Assembly: GCF_947499295.1 (NCBI RefSeq)
Contig: NZ_CANMNP010000013.1
Coordinates: 1 to 64,000, forward strand
Direction: 5' to 3'
Source of the DNA: an uncultured Roseibium sp.
Lineage (GTDB): Bacteria > Pseudomonadota > Alphaproteobacteria > Rhizobiales > Stappiaceae
Length of the DNA: 64,000 bases
Below the pieces are notes generated by a model. The model was not told the DNA's origin. It ran no database searches and saw only the letters and a program-made list of their open reading frames with translations. This document shows positions 34,400 to 40,664 of this stretch, piece by piece. How positions within the stretch are numbered: position 1 is the stretch's first letter; every line of letters begins with the position of its first letter. The translations under genes were made by a program, and so were the position numbers.

Positions 34400-35113
34400 T
34401 CAGCCAAGGTCATAGACCCGGACTGTACCAAGTGGTCCAGTCATGAGGTACTTCTGGGACTCTATGGGAAATGGGTCGAAGTACGGGTGCGACCCGTTGT
34501 CAGTCTCCGCCACACGAGCGAGTTCGCTCGTTCCTTGTGCTTCCATAAAGTAGCCGATACGAAAATAGGCGTTCATGTCGAGAACACCTTGTGCAGGCGG
34601 GAAGTCATCCCGGTCGATATAGGGGGTCCAAGGGTAGACAGGCTGTGGCTGCAAGACGGTTTTTTCAATTGTGCGACCTGGCCTGACAGGTGTGACAAAG
34701 GGAATGTTGAACCCTTCAAGCAGCATGCCCTCCGGCACGTCGACAATCTGGCGGCTGAACACAAGTTGTCCCTGCTCGATTGATGCGTAACAAGCCTCTA
34801 CCAGTGGAAAGACAGAACCATTGAACTCGTCATGAAGGACATCGAAAAGATAGGCGGTTCGATCGCTCAGATTTCTTACCTGATAGCTGAGACGGAGCGT
34901 CGGACCGTCCTGCTGGATTTGAACCGCCAAGGATATGTCATTGTTTTGATTGCTGGACGATGACATTGCGGATGCCTTTTTCTGGAAACTGAAATTGAAG
35001 CCTGAGGACAACAGCCCGAGCAGCAGGAAGCGTCGATCAATAGAATAGCCGTTCGGGTTGTTTGGGGTCCCATTCCTCACGGAGTTTGTTTTCACTGTAG
35101 GGTTCGTTGTCAT
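34400..35113 (-). CDS. Putative exported protein paired with the PAAR effector (possible immunity protein)
   Basis: No family is recognised. From the ATG at 35111-35113 the product has 237 residues. It then shows IDRRFLLLGLLSSGFNFSF followed by QKKASA, which reads like a Tat-type signal ending near residue 49. The mature domain begins MSSSSNQNN and contains DGPTLRLSYQVRNLSDRTAY, a beta-rich pattern. The start is uncertain: the reading frame overlaps the PAAR effector gene by 77 bases and no ribosome site is clear. ATG 34966 would remove the signal. Gene order directly after a secreted-effector candidate suggests immunity, by inference only. Confidence 0.5.
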   Translation of the reverse strand: MTTNPTVKTNSVRNGTPNNPNGYSIDRRFLLLGLLSSGFNFSFQKKASAMSSSSNQNNDISLAVQIQQDGPTLRLSYQVRNLSDRTAYLFDVLHDEFNGSVFPLVEACYASIEQGQLVFSRQIVDVPEGMLLEGFNIPFVTPVRPGRTIEKTVLQPQPVYPWTPYIDRDDFPPAQGVLDMNAYFRIGYFMEAQGTSELARVAETDNGSHPYFDPFPIESQKYLMTGPLGTVRVYDLG

Positions 35114-35936
35114 GTGGCGGTATTCCAACGGTCCTGGCTTCTTCCTTGATGACCTTGGCATTTTTGGTCGGATCTGCAGGATCTGGTTTGCTGTCATTGT
35201 CCACTTTCGAGAAATCGAGCTCACCATCGGCGGCATGTTGAGCGTGGATCAACTCATGGCCAAGGCCGATTTCGGGTGGACGTGTCTGCCACGGCTGTGC
35301 GGTTCCATAACTCGTCCGATTGGGATTGTAGTGCACAGTCGTATCGCATCCTGACCCTGGATTGCCGCTGGAATCCAGTTTGCCGTCATTTGTAAAACCA
35401 GTGACCTTATTCCCGCCAGTTGTCTCTTTTATCGTTATCGTTTTGCCTGAATTGTGCAGATCGGTCAAAAGCTTGGCACCGGATGGTGTCTGCGCGAGTT
35501 TGGCCAGTGCCTGAACTGTTTGCTCTCGGAACTTTTCGGTTCCCTCAATTTCGATTGACGGCCCAACTTTGGTGGTGCCGACCGGGCCCGGGCCAGCTGC
35601 TCCGCCACCACCAGCTCCGCCGCCGCCTCCTGCGCCCGCAGTTCCGATCAGAACAGTGGGATATCCGGTAACGATCGAACCCGCTTTCAGGGTCAGGTCG
35701 GTCATACGCGCCGCAGGTAGGCCCTCAACCAGAACCGTCCAGGCTCCTGTTACGATGGGATCGCCGCCGATGGGCGGGGGCGGGCCAACGCATATGCAAA
35801 GATCAGTGACGCGCGCCTGGGGCATCATGCCGGTAAGCACGGTCCAGGCGCACTTCCAGACAATCGGCAACGGCACACCAAAGCACATCGGACAAATATG
35901 CTGGTCAATAAGGAGCCGGGCGGCGGGAAATTTCAT
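35037..35936 (-). CDS. PAAR-domain M91 zinc metallopeptidase, probable type VI secretion effector
   Basis: The 299-residue protein combines a PAAR domain and a toxin domain. The N-terminal PAAR domain (about 1-95) has repeated GDPI/GYPTVLIG-type turns and several Cys/His residues (HICPMCFG, DLCICV). Such domains cap the VgrG spike. A glycine-rich hinge (GAGGGGGAGGGG) follows. From about 125 is an M91-like peptidase domain related to NleD-type effectors. Its zinc site is H227-E228-x-x-H231 (LGHELIHAQH), and the probable third ligand is E265 or E266 in KEEARTVGI. No other type VI genes are in the window, so this looks like an orphan effector. The target protein is unknown. Confidence 0.85.
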   Translation of the reverse strand: MKFPAARLLIDQHICPMCFGVPLPIVWKCAWTVLTGMMPQARVTDLCICVGPPPPIGGDPIVTGAWTVLVEGLPAARMTDLTLKAGSIVTGYPTVLIGTAGAGGGGGAGGGGAAGPGPVGTTKVGPSIEIEGTEKFREQTVQALAKLAQTPSGAKLLTDLHNSGKTITIKETTGGNKVTGFTNDGKLDSSGNPGSGCDTTVHYNPNRTSYGTAQPWQTRPPEIGLGHELIHAQHAADGELDFSKVDNDSKPDPADPTKNAKVIKEEARTVGIPPHDNEPYSENKLREEWDPKQPERLFY

Positions 35937-37805: not shown

Positions 37806-38960
37806 TCAAGCCGTGGTGTCGTCACGCAGCTTGACGAGATCGTTCATCAGGCCTTCCGTCCCGTTGTGAACCGTCAAACGATCCACTTTTCCGGCAATCG
37901 CCTCGAGAGCTTCCAGCTCTTTCAGGCGCAACATGACCGGATTTTCGGCCATGACCTTCGCGGTGTTCAGAAGCGAACGTGTTGCGTTCGTTTCCTCCCT
38001 ACGGCGGATGACATTGGCTTCAGCTTCTTTTTCAGCCGTCACCACCTTGTTGAGGATCTCACGCATTTCGCCTGGCAGGATGACATCCTTCAGAACAATA
38101 TCGGAAACCTCGATACCGATCTTTGCCATGTCAGTCTTGATCTGCGCCTCGGCTTCTTCGTTCACCTCTCCCTTGCGTTCAAGGATCTGGTCAAGCTTCA
38201 ACGCACCAAGCTGCTTACGAAACACCAGCTGAAGCGCCCTATAGAGCGTATCCGAGAAGTCCTTCACGTCCTGCGTGGCTTTCACCGGGTCGACCACACG
38301 GTACTCCGCAGACAGGTTGATCCGGATCGTGACACGATCAAGTGTCAAGACTTCCTGACCGGTGACATCGAGGCTCTGACGCTTCAGGTCGATCAGCTTC
38401 TGCGTCACTTTTCGACCAGTGCTCCAGTAGGCATGCAAGCCTGACTGCAGAACTTTGGTGAGAACCCCATCGACGAACAAAAGCGCTACGCTACCGTCGG
38501 TCACCGGGATCACGACGTGATGCTGGGCCTTTTGGGCTTCGCTCAGACGACGCTGCAACTCTGCAGGCAACTCAGGTTCTGCAACCGTGTCGACTACCTG
38601 CCAGGTCCAGGGACCGGCTTCGTTCCAGAGAACCAGCTTATCATTCGGACCGACCACGGTATGAATGAGCTTGTCGCGCTCGACAATCGCGATTTCACCA
38701 GGTCCGGTTCGAACAACGGTCAGCAGCTTTTCGACAACTTCAGGAAATTTATCGAAAAGTGCCTTCTCGTAGACGGAACGAAACTGAGGTATCGCCAGAT
38801 TGTGTCGCTCGATCACGAGTGATCCACGGCCGCTTTTCAGGCTGTGGTCCCCTGGTCCGAGGATACCCTTGAGTTTACCCTGCAGAAGGTGAAGAGCACG
38901 TTCGTTTTCAGAAATCAGTACGCGGGTACGTCCGCGGATCTTGTTGAGAAAGTTCATCAT
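37806..38960 (-). CDS. Slipin (SPFH/band-7) protein
   Basis: The 384-residue protein has an SPFH/band-7 domain from about residue 165 to 300: VALLFVDGVLTKVLQSGLHA, VLTLDRVTIRINLSAEYRVV, and DIVLKDVILPGEMREILNKV. A coiled-coil tail follows (VTAEKEAEANVIRRREETNA). The N-terminal 150 residues (ENERALHLLQGKLKGILGPG) are an extension typical of the soluble slipins associated with RNA-repair loci rather than of membrane stomatins. No N-terminal membrane hairpin is seen. GGAAGGA precedes two adjacent ATG codons. Two tRNA-like sequences lie upstream on the same strand. Oligomeric scaffold function is inferred. Confidence 0.9.
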   Translation of the reverse strand: MMNFLNKIRGRTRVLISENERALHLLQGKLKGILGPGDHSLKSGRGSLVIERHNLAIPQFRSVYEKALFDKFPEVVEKLLTVVRTGPGEIAIVERDKLIHTVVGPNDKLVLWNEAGPWTWQVVDTVAEPELPAELQRRLSEAQKAQHHVVIPVTDGSVALLFVDGVLTKVLQSGLHAYWSTGRKVTQKLIDLKRQSLDVTGQEVLTLDRVTIRINLSAEYRVVDPVKATQDVKDFSDTLYRALQLVFRKQLGALKLDQILERKGEVNEEAEAQIKTDMAKIGIEVSDIVLKDVILPGEMREILNKVVTAEKEAEANVIRRREETNATRSLLNTAKVMAENPVMLRLKELEALEAIAGKVDRLTVHNGTEGLMNDLVKLRDDTTA

Positions 38961-39356
38961 TTCGATATTCCTTCCGTGGCACTAAGGCACGTGGTTGTCC
39001 TTTCTTCGGGTTGAAGTTGGTTAGAGTTGGTTGAAATCCGGCAGACTGACTGGCAGCCTCCCGAGGCGAAAATCTGAGACCTGAAGAAAGCGCGGGCGCT
39101 TTCGGCGGGGCGCGGAACAGCGGATCTTGCGGCAACAGCACAGGGTACGCCCGTTCGAAAACCAGTGTTCCCGGCAAGGCTGCGGCGCGATCATGAAACG
39201 CGACCGGACGAAGGCCCCCGGCATCTGCACTTTGCACACTTAGGCCAAAGGCCAGGCGCACAAACCGCGTCCGCAAGCTTTCTTCAGGTCCCGCAATGTA
39301 AACAGCTTGACGAGCTGCTGGCTTGGAAAGCCAGTCCGGTTTTCAAGACCGGGTTT
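38961..39356 (-). other. Region between slipin and tRNA-like pair
   Basis: No accepted gene. A 122-codon frame (39276 to 38908) overlaps the slipin start and begins at TTG; it lacks a recognisable family. Just downstream of the tRNA-like pair is a stem CTGGCTT/AAGCCAG (39315-39332), which may help end or protect the RNA. If the pair and slipin share a transcript, this is its leader. Confidence 0.45.
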
Positions 39357-39422
39357 TGGAGCGGGAGTTGAACCCGCGACATTCGGAGTCTGGATCCGAT
39401 GCTCTACCAACTGAGCTATCCA
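39357..39422 (-). ncRNA. Truncated tRNA-like RNA, 4-bp acceptor stem
   Basis: On the minus strand the 66 bases fold as a tRNA with intact D, anticodon and T arms. The D arm is GCTC/GAGC with loop AGTTGGTA. The anticodon stem is TCGGA/TCCGA and the T stem is GCGGG/CCCGC with loop TTCAACT. Only four acceptor pairs, TGGA/TCCA, can form in place of seven. The anticodon loop TCCAGAC has C at position 33 instead of the universal U. It starts at the base after the CCA end of the neighbouring tRNA-like RNA. It is unlikely to decode. I call it tRNA-derived, function unknown. Confidence 0.75.
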
Positions 39423-39497
39423 TGGAGCACAAGACAGGAGTTGAACCTGTTGCCTCCGGGTCACATTCCCGGCGTTCTACCGTTGAACTACTTGCGC
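39423..39497 (-). ncRNA. Complete tRNA-like RNA with encoded CCA and no U33
   Basis: The 75 bases form a perfect cloverleaf. The acceptor is GCGCAAG/CTTGTGC, U73, then encoded CCA. The D stem is GTTC/GAAC and the anticodon stem is CCGGG/CCCGG. The T stem is ACAGG/CCTGT with loop TTCAACT. The anticodon loop is AATGTGA: position 33 is A, not U, and the nominal anticodon is UGU. Every other element is tRNA-like, so decoding may be disabled on purpose. It abuts a second tRNA-like sequence and precedes a slipin gene. A standard annotation might call it tRNA-Thr or tRNA of undetermined type. Confidence 0.8.
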
Positions 39498-39788
39498 AGG
39501 TACCGAAATGTTCAGAACAACGTCCGTACGTGAGTGCGACAGCGTCGGATCACGCGGGTGACAAAAACAGCCAAACCGCTGACGTTTGTTCCGAAGCCCT
39601 GATCGGTAAAAGGGTGATAATACAAAACAGACGATGAGCTCAAGTATGAATAAGACTGTTGTTTTAAGTTGGTGCAAAAATGCAACATACTGTAGTATTT
39701 TCGCAACTATCTCGCTTGGTGGCGTTGTTCTTCTTTTTGAGAGCAGCCGATGACGTGTCTCATTGATGGGTTTGTATCTCGGTGATGG

Positions 39789-40115
39789 TTAGCAGCCGCA
39801 CTGTGGTGTGCAACAGGCACGCACTGTCTCATGATTGTTGCAGCAGTCTTCAAGGAGATATCGGATCAAGGCTCCCATTGCAGCAAAGTCCACCTTGTAG
39901 CAAATCTGCCGTGATCGCCGGTTTGCCGTGATCAGGCCTGCATCTGCCATGTTCGACAGATGAAATGAAGTTCGCGACGGTGTTCCGTCAGAAGCCTCGG
40001 CTATGTCTCCGGCGGTCATCCCGTCTGGACCTGCTGCAACCAGTCTTTTCAAGATCCTCAACCGTGTTGCGCTGGAAATTGCGGAAAGAGCGGCAAGTGC
40101 ATCGGTTTCATTCAT
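39789..40115 (-). CDS. ArsR-family metalloregulator
   Basis: The 108-residue protein has the winged HTH of ArsR/SmtB repressors (SSATRLRILKRLVAAG, then SRTSFHLSNMADAGLI). A cysteine-rich C-terminus (EDCCNNHETVRACC, PQCGC) could bind arsenite or another thiophilic metal. It is divergent from the DUF6428 gene, and two matching inverted repeats occupy the shared promoter region. It likely represses both directions and is released by metal. The ligand is inferred from cysteine content. Confidence 0.9.
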   Translation of the reverse strand: MNETDALAALSAISSATRLRILKRLVAAGPDGMTAGDIAEASDGTPSRTSFHLSNMADAGLITANRRSRQICYKVDFAAMGALIRYLLEDCCNNHETVRACCTPQCGC

Positions 40116-40157: not shown

Positions 40158-40177
40158 ATTTCAATAAAAATTGAAAT
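40158..40177. promoter_or_regulatory. ArsR-type operator 2
   Basis: ATTTCAAT and ATTGAAAT form a perfect 8-bp inverted repeat around AAAA, just upstream of the ribosome site of the DUF6428 gene. It uses the same half-site as operator 1. Confidence 0.72.
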
Positions 40178-40190
40178 GAAAGGTGACGTT

Positions 40191-40664
40191 ATGTCGTTGA
40201 GTGATCTTTTGGAGACGCTTCAGGCTCTGCCGAGCGAAGCGCCGGTCGTATTCCTGACAGATGAAGGTGAAATTGGCGCCGGCTATCATGTAACTGAGCT
40301 CAAACTGTCTCATGTGACCAGTATCGACTGCGGCGCTCGCATTGCCAGTTGGTCGGAGGCAGCGCTCCAGTTGCTCGACGGTGCGGACGGCGGCCATATG
40401 ACAGCTGGCAAGCTCAGTGCCATTCTCAGACAAAGCATAGCTAGAGTAAGCGGCCTTGCCGCCGTGCCTCTAAAAGCGGAATTCGCTCACGGAAATGAGG
40501 GAATGCACCTCTACGGGATCGATACGCCGGAATTGGAGGGGGCAAAGGTCGTTGTTCGGCTCACACAACTTCGCGCGCATTGCAAGCCGGCACTGGAGAT
40601 GCCTGCGAACCAGAACATGTCCGCCTGTTGCGGGACCTCGCCACAGTCTCAATGCTGCGGCTAA
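40191..40664 (+). CDS. DUF6428 family protein of arsenic-type loci
   Basis: The second ATG (40191) is used because AAAGGTGA precedes it, giving 157 residues. The protein matches the DUF6428 family by its opening LSDLLETLQALPSEAPVVFL and by GYHVTELKLSHVTSIDCGAR. The C-terminus ends with a cysteine-rich tail (SACCGTSPQSQCCG) that could chelate metal. Such proteins occur in arsR-linked clusters; their reaction is unknown. The divergent ArsR gene and two shared operators support metal-responsive expression. Confidence 0.8.
   Translation: MSLSDLLETLQALPSEAPVVFLTDEGEIGAGYHVTELKLSHVTSIDCGARIASWSEAALQLLDGADGGHMTAGKLSAILRQSIARVSGLAAVPLKAEFAHGNEGMHLYGIDTPELEGAKVVVRLTQLRAHCKPALEMPANQNMSACCGTSPQSQCCG

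Follow-up and report, generated by a model that had tools for sequence, protein, structure and literature searches.

Upstream of a slipin gene in an uncultured Roseibium, two abutting tRNA-like RNAs stand, as judged from the comparison of related leaders, at the 5' end of a structured and covarying RNA of roughly 430 nt, which appears to be made together with the slipin from a putative sigma-70-like promoter. The defects of the pair are complementary: the first RNA (RNA-1) usually keeps the acceptor and CCA end, and the second (RNA-2) usually keeps the seven-nucleotide anticodon loop. We regard the combination of a tRNA-mimic RNA with a slipin as probably a relative of RNA-repair systems, a link that rests on gene context, and we assign a probability of roughly 45% to the reading that the RNA serves as a decoy or sensor for anticodon-loop nucleases. 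What sequence comparison establishes is the conservation, the covariation, the complementary defects, a variable anticodon in a fixed stem, the linkage to the slipin and, at some loci, an rtc context. The features are listed here in positions of the window, by which we mean the whole stretch of 64,000 nt that was analyzed.

39682..39708, minus strand: operator-like AGTTGC-N15-TGTTGC (hexamer enrichment in relatives; window site read from the sequence)
39615..39643, minus strand: putative sigma-70-like promoter, TTGAGC (39643-39638), 17 nt, TTATCA (39620-39615) (sequence read by eye; position conserved by eye)
39498..39614, minus strand: 5' leader ahead of RNA-1, conserved within clades (alignments; boundaries approximate)
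39423..39497, minus strand: RNA-1, tRNA-like, 7-bp acceptor, A33, CCA included (RF00005, 57.4 bits; genus conservation; covariation)
39357..39422, minus strand: RNA-2, tRNA-like, 4-bp acceptor, C33, no CCA (RF00005, 52.9 bits; genus conservation; covariation)
39303..39352, minus strand: three small tandem hairpins (consensus fold of 12 Roseibium leaders; window coordinates derived by hand)
39076..39292, minus strand: branched RNA domain of about 217 nt with a 14-bp closing stem, 39292-39279 with 39089-39076 (consensus fold and covariation)
37806..38960, minus strand: slipin (SPFH/Band_7) gene, 384 aa (Pfam Band_7, PF01145, E 6.6e-32; AlphaFold model)

The earlier note had read from the letters two abutting tRNA-like RNAs without a spacer, one with an encoded CCA and A33, the other with a 4-bp acceptor and C33, and these particulars agree with our own reading of the sequence, with the Rfam tRNA model (RF00005; 39497-39426 at 57.4 bits and 39422-39357 at 52.9 bits, both on the minus strand) and with ARAGORN, which labels RNA-1 as Thr(tgt) and RNA-2 as Leu(cag). 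RNA-1 has one G-U pair in its 7-bp acceptor, the anticodon loop AATGTGA and CCA at 39425-39423; RNA-2 has the acceptor TGGA/TCCA and the anticodon loop TCCAGAC, its first base (39422) abuts RNA-1, and 396 bases separate it from the slipin start at 38960. Neither RNA joins in one molecule the set that marks a decoding tRNA (7-bp acceptor, CCA and a 7-nt loop with U33), and U33 is present in all 42 other tRNA genes found in the host genome. That contrast, together with the systematic defects across 41 related pairs described below, bears out the suggestion that these RNAs are not decoder-like. One further tRNA-like match in the host genome sits at the very end of a contig (G000:C30:22340-22411, 59 bits) and covers Rfam model positions 2-69 only.

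The pair is real, but the earlier note missed the larger RNA of which it is only the front. A consensus fold of 12 Roseibium leaders places the two cloverleaves ahead of three small hairpins and a branched domain of roughly 217 nt. Over the 119 named pairs of this fold, 93.4% of cells pair as against 87.3% in shuffled alignments, a figure favored by the derivation of the structure from the same alignment of 12 related rows. Changes on both sides of a pair occur at 48 pairs versus 23.8 (sd 3.0) expected, a value reached by 0 of 500 shuffles; when the partners are slid, at most 19 pairs are changed on both sides. Within the same 12 leaders, the RNA-1 acceptor has seven positions with 91.5% of cells paired and compensatory change at three, and that of RNA-2 has three pairs that never vary plus a fourth present in 6 of the 12. 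The covariance-model tRNA search and the look at relatives that had been proposed as a check thus put the pair beyond chance, as conserved and carrying compensatory changes.

A domain closed by a long stem also appears in folds of Mesorhizobium, Rhizobium and Burkholderiales leaders, and Rhodobacteraceae leaders give a weaker long-stem fold with an energy of -36 over 550 columns, both sets of folds being taken with no control. A DNA search for the large domain detected it in 8 of 41 genomes, each of them slipin-bearing; it was not seen in G012 or G016, though both bear the unit. At the gathering score, Rfam 15 recognized only tRNA within the unit, in the window as well as at eight other slipin loci, and the large domain matched no family; for YrlA the window scored 31.4 bits against a gathering score of 69, and no Pfam match to Ro60/TROVE was seen among the nine proteins around the unit. 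Folding of single leaders gave z -2.2 for the window and z -1.25 for the E. coli leader. When the window leader is folded by itself, the structure of lowest energy does not show RNA-1 as a cloverleaf, a result that counts against the explanation we prefer.

Within the genus, the RNA pair and the slipin strictly co-occur. In our sample of 25 genomes (the host and 24 others), the slipin is present at 72% identity or more in 10, the next SPFH matches scoring below 50 bits, and all 10 carry the tRNA-like pair at the same position; the 15 genomes without the slipin yielded only matches of 71 nt or less, which we read as tRNA arms. Loss and random decay of the pair in all relatives that retain the slipin, which the earlier note had named as evidence to the contrary, is not what we see in the genus. 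Beyond the genus, G033 (from another family) has two tRNA-like RNAs and a 56% identical slipin whose match contains a TAG, G035 has a slipin 37% identical with two weak tRNA-like matches (27.3 and 21.2 bits), and no tRNA-like RNA was found with the 36% identical slipin of G032. Of 192 genomes sampled from the class, 5 have this slipin; of the four besides the host, three have one or two tRNA-like RNAs, and the fourth (L239, with a partial gene) has none.

For a wider view, we scanned genome contigs with the slipin alignment, which gave at least 581 confirmed relatives, of which the best 80 were retained; at least 21 of the 80 belong to the Mesorhizobium group, distant slipins are under-sampled, and the rows are not independent. 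The tRNA covariance model was built from 28 ordinary tRNAs of the host genome and applied at a threshold of E 1e-5, and the pair counts are lower bounds because weaker second tRNA-like RNAs go uncounted (for example, L178 6440-6508). In 77 of these best 80 of at least 581 loci, a tRNA-like RNA lies no more than 600 nt upstream, on the same strand as the slipin and about 210-540 nt from it, in 41 cases as a pair 0-6 nt apart and in 36 as a single RNA; by group, this is all 62 alphaproteobacterial loci and 15 of the 18 others. The three exceptions comprise L194 and L202, which offer only 309 and 239 nt of upstream sequence, and L201, a true miss. In a control with 17 loci of other SPFH genes, none had a tRNA-like match at E 0.1. 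The upstream, co-oriented arrangement is shared by the window and the 77 loci, including the rtc-linked L203, L204 and L211. Counting against the explanation we prefer, no full tRNA-like RNA was found for some family members, namely G032, L201, L239 (the partial gene) and the slipins of E. coli (L244) and Citrobacter (L245).

Such a placement also suits a cis-acting leader sensor, in which RNase P, RNase Z or a nuclease that cuts tRNA would process the RNA and alter slipin output when tRNA is attacked or processing is blocked: the RNA lies in the putative 5' leader, on the same strand and some 210-540 nt ahead, in 77 of the best 80 of at least 581 loci, a single conserved promoter-like site is seen upstream by eye, and a long structured domain stands in between. 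A pure switch, however, has no obvious need for two mimics of opposite defect or for anticodons that change within a fixed stem, and no terminator or ribosome-site switch was identified; we consider this reading rather unlikely.

The division of defects between the two RNAs is systematic. Among the 41 pairs (from the best 80 of at least 581 loci), 32 first RNAs carry CCA behind the discriminator, 28 have an anticodon loop shortened to 4-6 nt, and U33 is present in only 3 of the 13 whose loop has seven nucleotides; of the 41 second RNAs, 37 have a seven-nt loop, with U33 in 32 of these, and 2 carry CCA. The 36 single RNAs of the same set are similar to the second RNA, with U33 in 25 of their 30 seven-nt loops and CCA in 4 of the 36. 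In 32 other tRNAs of the same loci, used as a control, CCA is encoded in 29 and U33 is found in 27 of 31 seven-nt loops, that is, not in all. The absence of U33 on which the earlier note dwelt therefore holds for both window RNAs but is not general for RNA-2. The window is atypical of the wider family in this respect, as are its close relatives: the RNA-2 of the 12 Roseibium leaders has U33 in only 3 of 9 seven-nt loops, which weakens, for the window, the idea of a bait with a natural loop.

What the second RNA varies is its anticodon. In 20 pairs of the Mesorhizobium group (L150, with one match only, was omitted), anticodon positions 34 and 35 of RNA-2 are the most variable at 1.74 and 1.82 bits, the anticodon stem is invariant and the T arm varies at one position; the D-loop is strongly variable too (up to 1.56 bits), which counts against the decoy or sensor reading. 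Across the best 80 of at least 581 loci, second RNAs carry the anticodons GTT (9), CAT (8), TGT (3), ACG (3) and a further eleven kinds. Second and single RNAs together have 43 distinct seven-nt loops, of which 14 are identical to a real tRNA loop in a reference of 62 loops; when triplets are permuted against flanks, the mean is 9.1 (P 0.023), so that the excess is modest, and P is 0.044 and 0.071 when second and single RNAs are taken apart. None of 12 first-RNA loops equals a real loop in the same reference, and short RNA-1 loops can be read as deletions of real loops in 4 of 10 and 4 of 6 cases, as raw counts without a null. An anticodon that changes within an unchanging stem is the pattern to be expected of a bait. 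We favor the decoy or sensor reading.

That these are ordinary or decaying tRNA genes lying upstream of the slipin by chance strikes us as highly improbable. Rfam and ARAGORN do call both as tRNA, and some single RNAs have a complete loop and stems, but the strict co-occurrence with the slipin in the genus and the 77 of the best 80 of at least 581 loci, the compensatory changes and the systematic, complementary defects all disfavor stray tRNA pseudogenes.

On the protein side, the slipin is 96% identical to its counterpart in Labrenzia sp. THAF82, and its best matches in both sequence and structure are stomatins. The AlphaFold model shows three predicted N-terminal beta repeats, an SPFH domain and a long helix; in a look for an N-terminal membrane anchor, the best 19-residue hydropathy value (1.83, at residue 149) fell within predicted strands, and the model opens with the beta repeats. 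An internal-repeat test on this one sequence gave weak z values of 2.9, 0.8 and 2.4 for the three repeats. A likeness to the major vault protein, suggestive in the whole model, was not borne out by a model of the N-terminal part. PADLOC matched the slipin to 0 defense families. The slipin alignment (A7) holds 35 sequences, obtained from 52 named ones by omitting 18 and adding L086; L181, L192 and L207 were omitted for a stop codon in the named stretch, and L158, L164, L172, L176, L179, L180, L183, L185, L187, L190, L193, L199, L210, L211 and L212 for brevity. Elsewhere in the window, a PAAR-motif protein with a C-terminal Peptidase_M91 / XopG-like domain (35037-35936, minus strand) is a candidate type VI secretion effector.

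Under the decoy or sensor reading, the RNA and a slipin ring or cage would form a ribonucleoprotein in which RNA-2 presents tRNA anticodon loops without a chargeable end, as a nuclease decoy or a cleavable sensor. RNA-1 would present an acceptor and CCA end without a decodable loop and bind proteins that recognize tRNA ends, or, alternatively, might bind the nuclease without being cut in the normal way. A stronger form of the same idea is that the unit is a self-standing immunity device against tRNA-cleaving toxins, made of a slipin ring or cage and a split-mimic RNA (a variable-loop bait, and a CCA half with a loop that would resist normal cutting or reading) and working free of an RtcB-type ligase; this we offer as a doubtful but conceivable extension.

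Upstream of the RNA, 28 of the 38 non-redundant alphaproteobacterial regions contain the hexamer TGTTGC/GCAACA, where 7.1 (sd 2.2) would be expected; no hexamer went above 20 in any shuffle. Moreover, six alphaproteobacterial loci have two TGTTGC copies in the same direction exactly 21 nt apart. This looser hexamer test replaced an operator pattern guessed from an alignment, GCAACATA-N3-5-TGTTGC, which has 0 matches in the window. A link from TGTTGC to the PrfH-type RtcB was also considered and dropped: one site lies in the upstream gap, but there are 16 in the 19.5 kb of L063, which amounts to no evidence. The earlier note had found no convincing sigma-54 promoter in the window; upstream of the tRNA-like RNA, -24/-12 (sigma-54) scores are 10/11 in L203, L206 and L211 and 7 in 300 nt in L204, which has a confirmed RtcR, and the 61 alphaproteobacterial upstream regions, a set that includes L133, a relative of the window locus, score like shuffles. 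Just upstream of the unit, an ArsR-family regulator (39789-40115, minus strand) and a DUF6428 protein whose tail contains cysteine (40176-40664, plus strand) are divergently oriented.

The statement in the earlier note that RtcB loci include slipins and tRNA-like genes proves sound, since canonical RtcB lies in the examined flank of 6 of the best 80 of at least 581 loci (L203, L204, L205, L206, L207 and L211), and Pfam confirms RtcR in all three loci tested (L203, L204 and L211), RtcB and RlaP in L203, and RtcA in L204. Canonical RtcB is in the flank of none of the 62 alphaproteobacterial loci of that set, all of which have the tRNA-like RNA. The suggestion of a split or orphan locus is thus right in that no rtc genes stand beside the unit but not in implying a remnant, as the rtc-less unit is the form found in the sampled Alphaproteobacteria. 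A search of the host genome (6.4 Mb in 181 contigs) for RtcR and RtcB elsewhere gave no RtcR (PF06956) match, so that control of the unit by RtcR was set aside there, and a single RtcB on contig C3, beside an RF-1-domain (PrfH-like) gene, the slipin unit being on C13. Some RtcB is present in 8 of 10 slipin-bearing versus 3 of 15 other genus genomes, a co-occurrence that shared ancestry could explain; in the class sample, RtcB occurs in 26 of all 192 genomes and in 2 of the 5 that have the slipin.

These counts bear on a further alternative, in which the RNA is a guide, scaffold or assembly factor for broken-tRNA repair, the mimic holding tRNA halves or recruiting processing enzymes while the ligase comes from elsewhere. 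The rtc genes near 6 of the best 80 of at least 581 loci, the distant RtcB of the host and the "substrate or guide" proposal made for a Pelobacter RNA (PMC3543383, in its available portion) speak for it; the genus genomes G002 and G016, which have the unit and gave no RtcB or RtcR match, and the presence of RtcB in only two of the five slipin genomes of the class sample speak against it, and we think it unlikely, though like the leader sensor it is a serious rival. The slipin-RNA pair is separable from RtcB because it is present in genomes with no RtcB match. We place the unit with responses to broken tRNA because of the neighboring genes in some relatives and because of Ro60-type/YrlA-like/RtcB loci within the genus.

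Several loci met in the survey deserve mention in their own right. In two rtc loci of Burkholderiales type, a similar protein of about 247 aa separates the slipin from rtcB (L203 4426-5166 and L211 8153-8893), the L203 copy having no Pfam match. Three genus genomes have, at about 4500-5400 of L240, L241 and L242, RtcR and RtcB matches with YrlA-like RNAs scoring up to 68 bits against an Rfam cut-off of 69, and Ro60-type proteins are confirmed in L241 and L242. In E. coli CP061233 (L244 5470-7916), a unit of slipin and RlaP-type nucleotidyltransferase sits between DUF3811/rluF and lysC, and a match spanning 80% or more of the unit is present in 1617 of the 5426 complete E. coli genomes. In the leader of this unit a TGGCACG-N4-TCGCA stretch was noted by eye, and the tRNA likeness there is limited to a T-arm-like hairpin. 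Beside the Citrobacter copy (L245), rtcR is annotated.

That tRNA-like RNAs occur beside slipins in RNA-repair operons has been noted before; the alphaproteobacterial form reduces the system to RNA and slipin. Burroughs and Aravind, writing in NAR in 2016, reportedly described RNA-repair systems in which SPFH/Band-7 modules are accompanied by a cognate "novel tRNA-like molecule", and which would share with the window both the class of protein and the kind of RNA. The alphaproteobacterial form splits the work between two mimics of opposite defect, with an anticodon loop that changes while its stem stays fixed, which makes the decoy or sensor idea directly testable. It also contributes a covarying RNA with a large domain that goes unrecognized by Rfam 15. 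In the literature covered on slipin, SPFH, Band-7 or stomatin proteins and RtcB, RNA repair or tRNA-like RNAs, no title or abstract dealt with the tandem rtc-less form, which is weak evidence of absence, as subscription papers lay mostly outside that coverage.

Among the closest known cases is Pcar_R0061 of Pelobacter carbinolicus, a mutant tRNA that precedes a stomatin-like gene, rtcA and rtcB, with rtcR divergent, and for which the authors propose a substrate or guide role (PMC3543383). According to the accessible text, it resembles the window in its A33 and CAG anticodon, in the same-strand slipin-like gene downstream and in a cloverleaf kept by reciprocal changes, but it is one RNA in a full rtc operon with RtcR, whereas the window has two RNAs, no rtc genes and a large extra domain. 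A Pseudomonas aeruginosa SPFH gene, PaFlo8, sits among rtcA, rtcB and rtcR, hence in a full rtc locus unlike the window, and the available part of that paper mentions no tRNA (PMC13086221). The RtcB beside an RF-1-domain gene in the host is similar to the RtcB2-PrfH operon as outlined in PMC9223846, but it is off the unit's contig, and ARAGORN found no tRNA in its 19.5-kb locus.

In Anabaena, the trn tRNA operon, rtcB and the slipin alr0740 are among the targets of TrcR (PMC10272220), which puts a slipin, RtcB and extra tRNAs under one regulator; that system is cyanobacterial, with a 26-gene tRNA operon, and the accessible text describes no RNA like that of the window. Ordinary-looking tRNA groups near the slipin in L204 (Aliikangiella), L199 and L205, with 18, 9 and 5 ARAGORN calls, respectively, recall that operon. 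A parallel in design is Ro60 (Rsr) with YrlA in rtcBA operons, a protein paired with an RNA that has a tRNA-like domain in an RNA-repair context (PMC7790460); as far as the portion available to us goes, the same source reports that 5' tRNA halves with a cyclic phosphate end activate RtcR and raises the possibility that the tRNA-like domain of YrlA acts as a competitive inhibitor of anticodon nuclease. The window differs in having a slipin rather than Ro60, two tRNA-like RNAs and a different large domain, and the Ro60-type/YrlA-like/RtcB loci place that parallel pairing of a protein with a tRNA-like RNA in the same genus.
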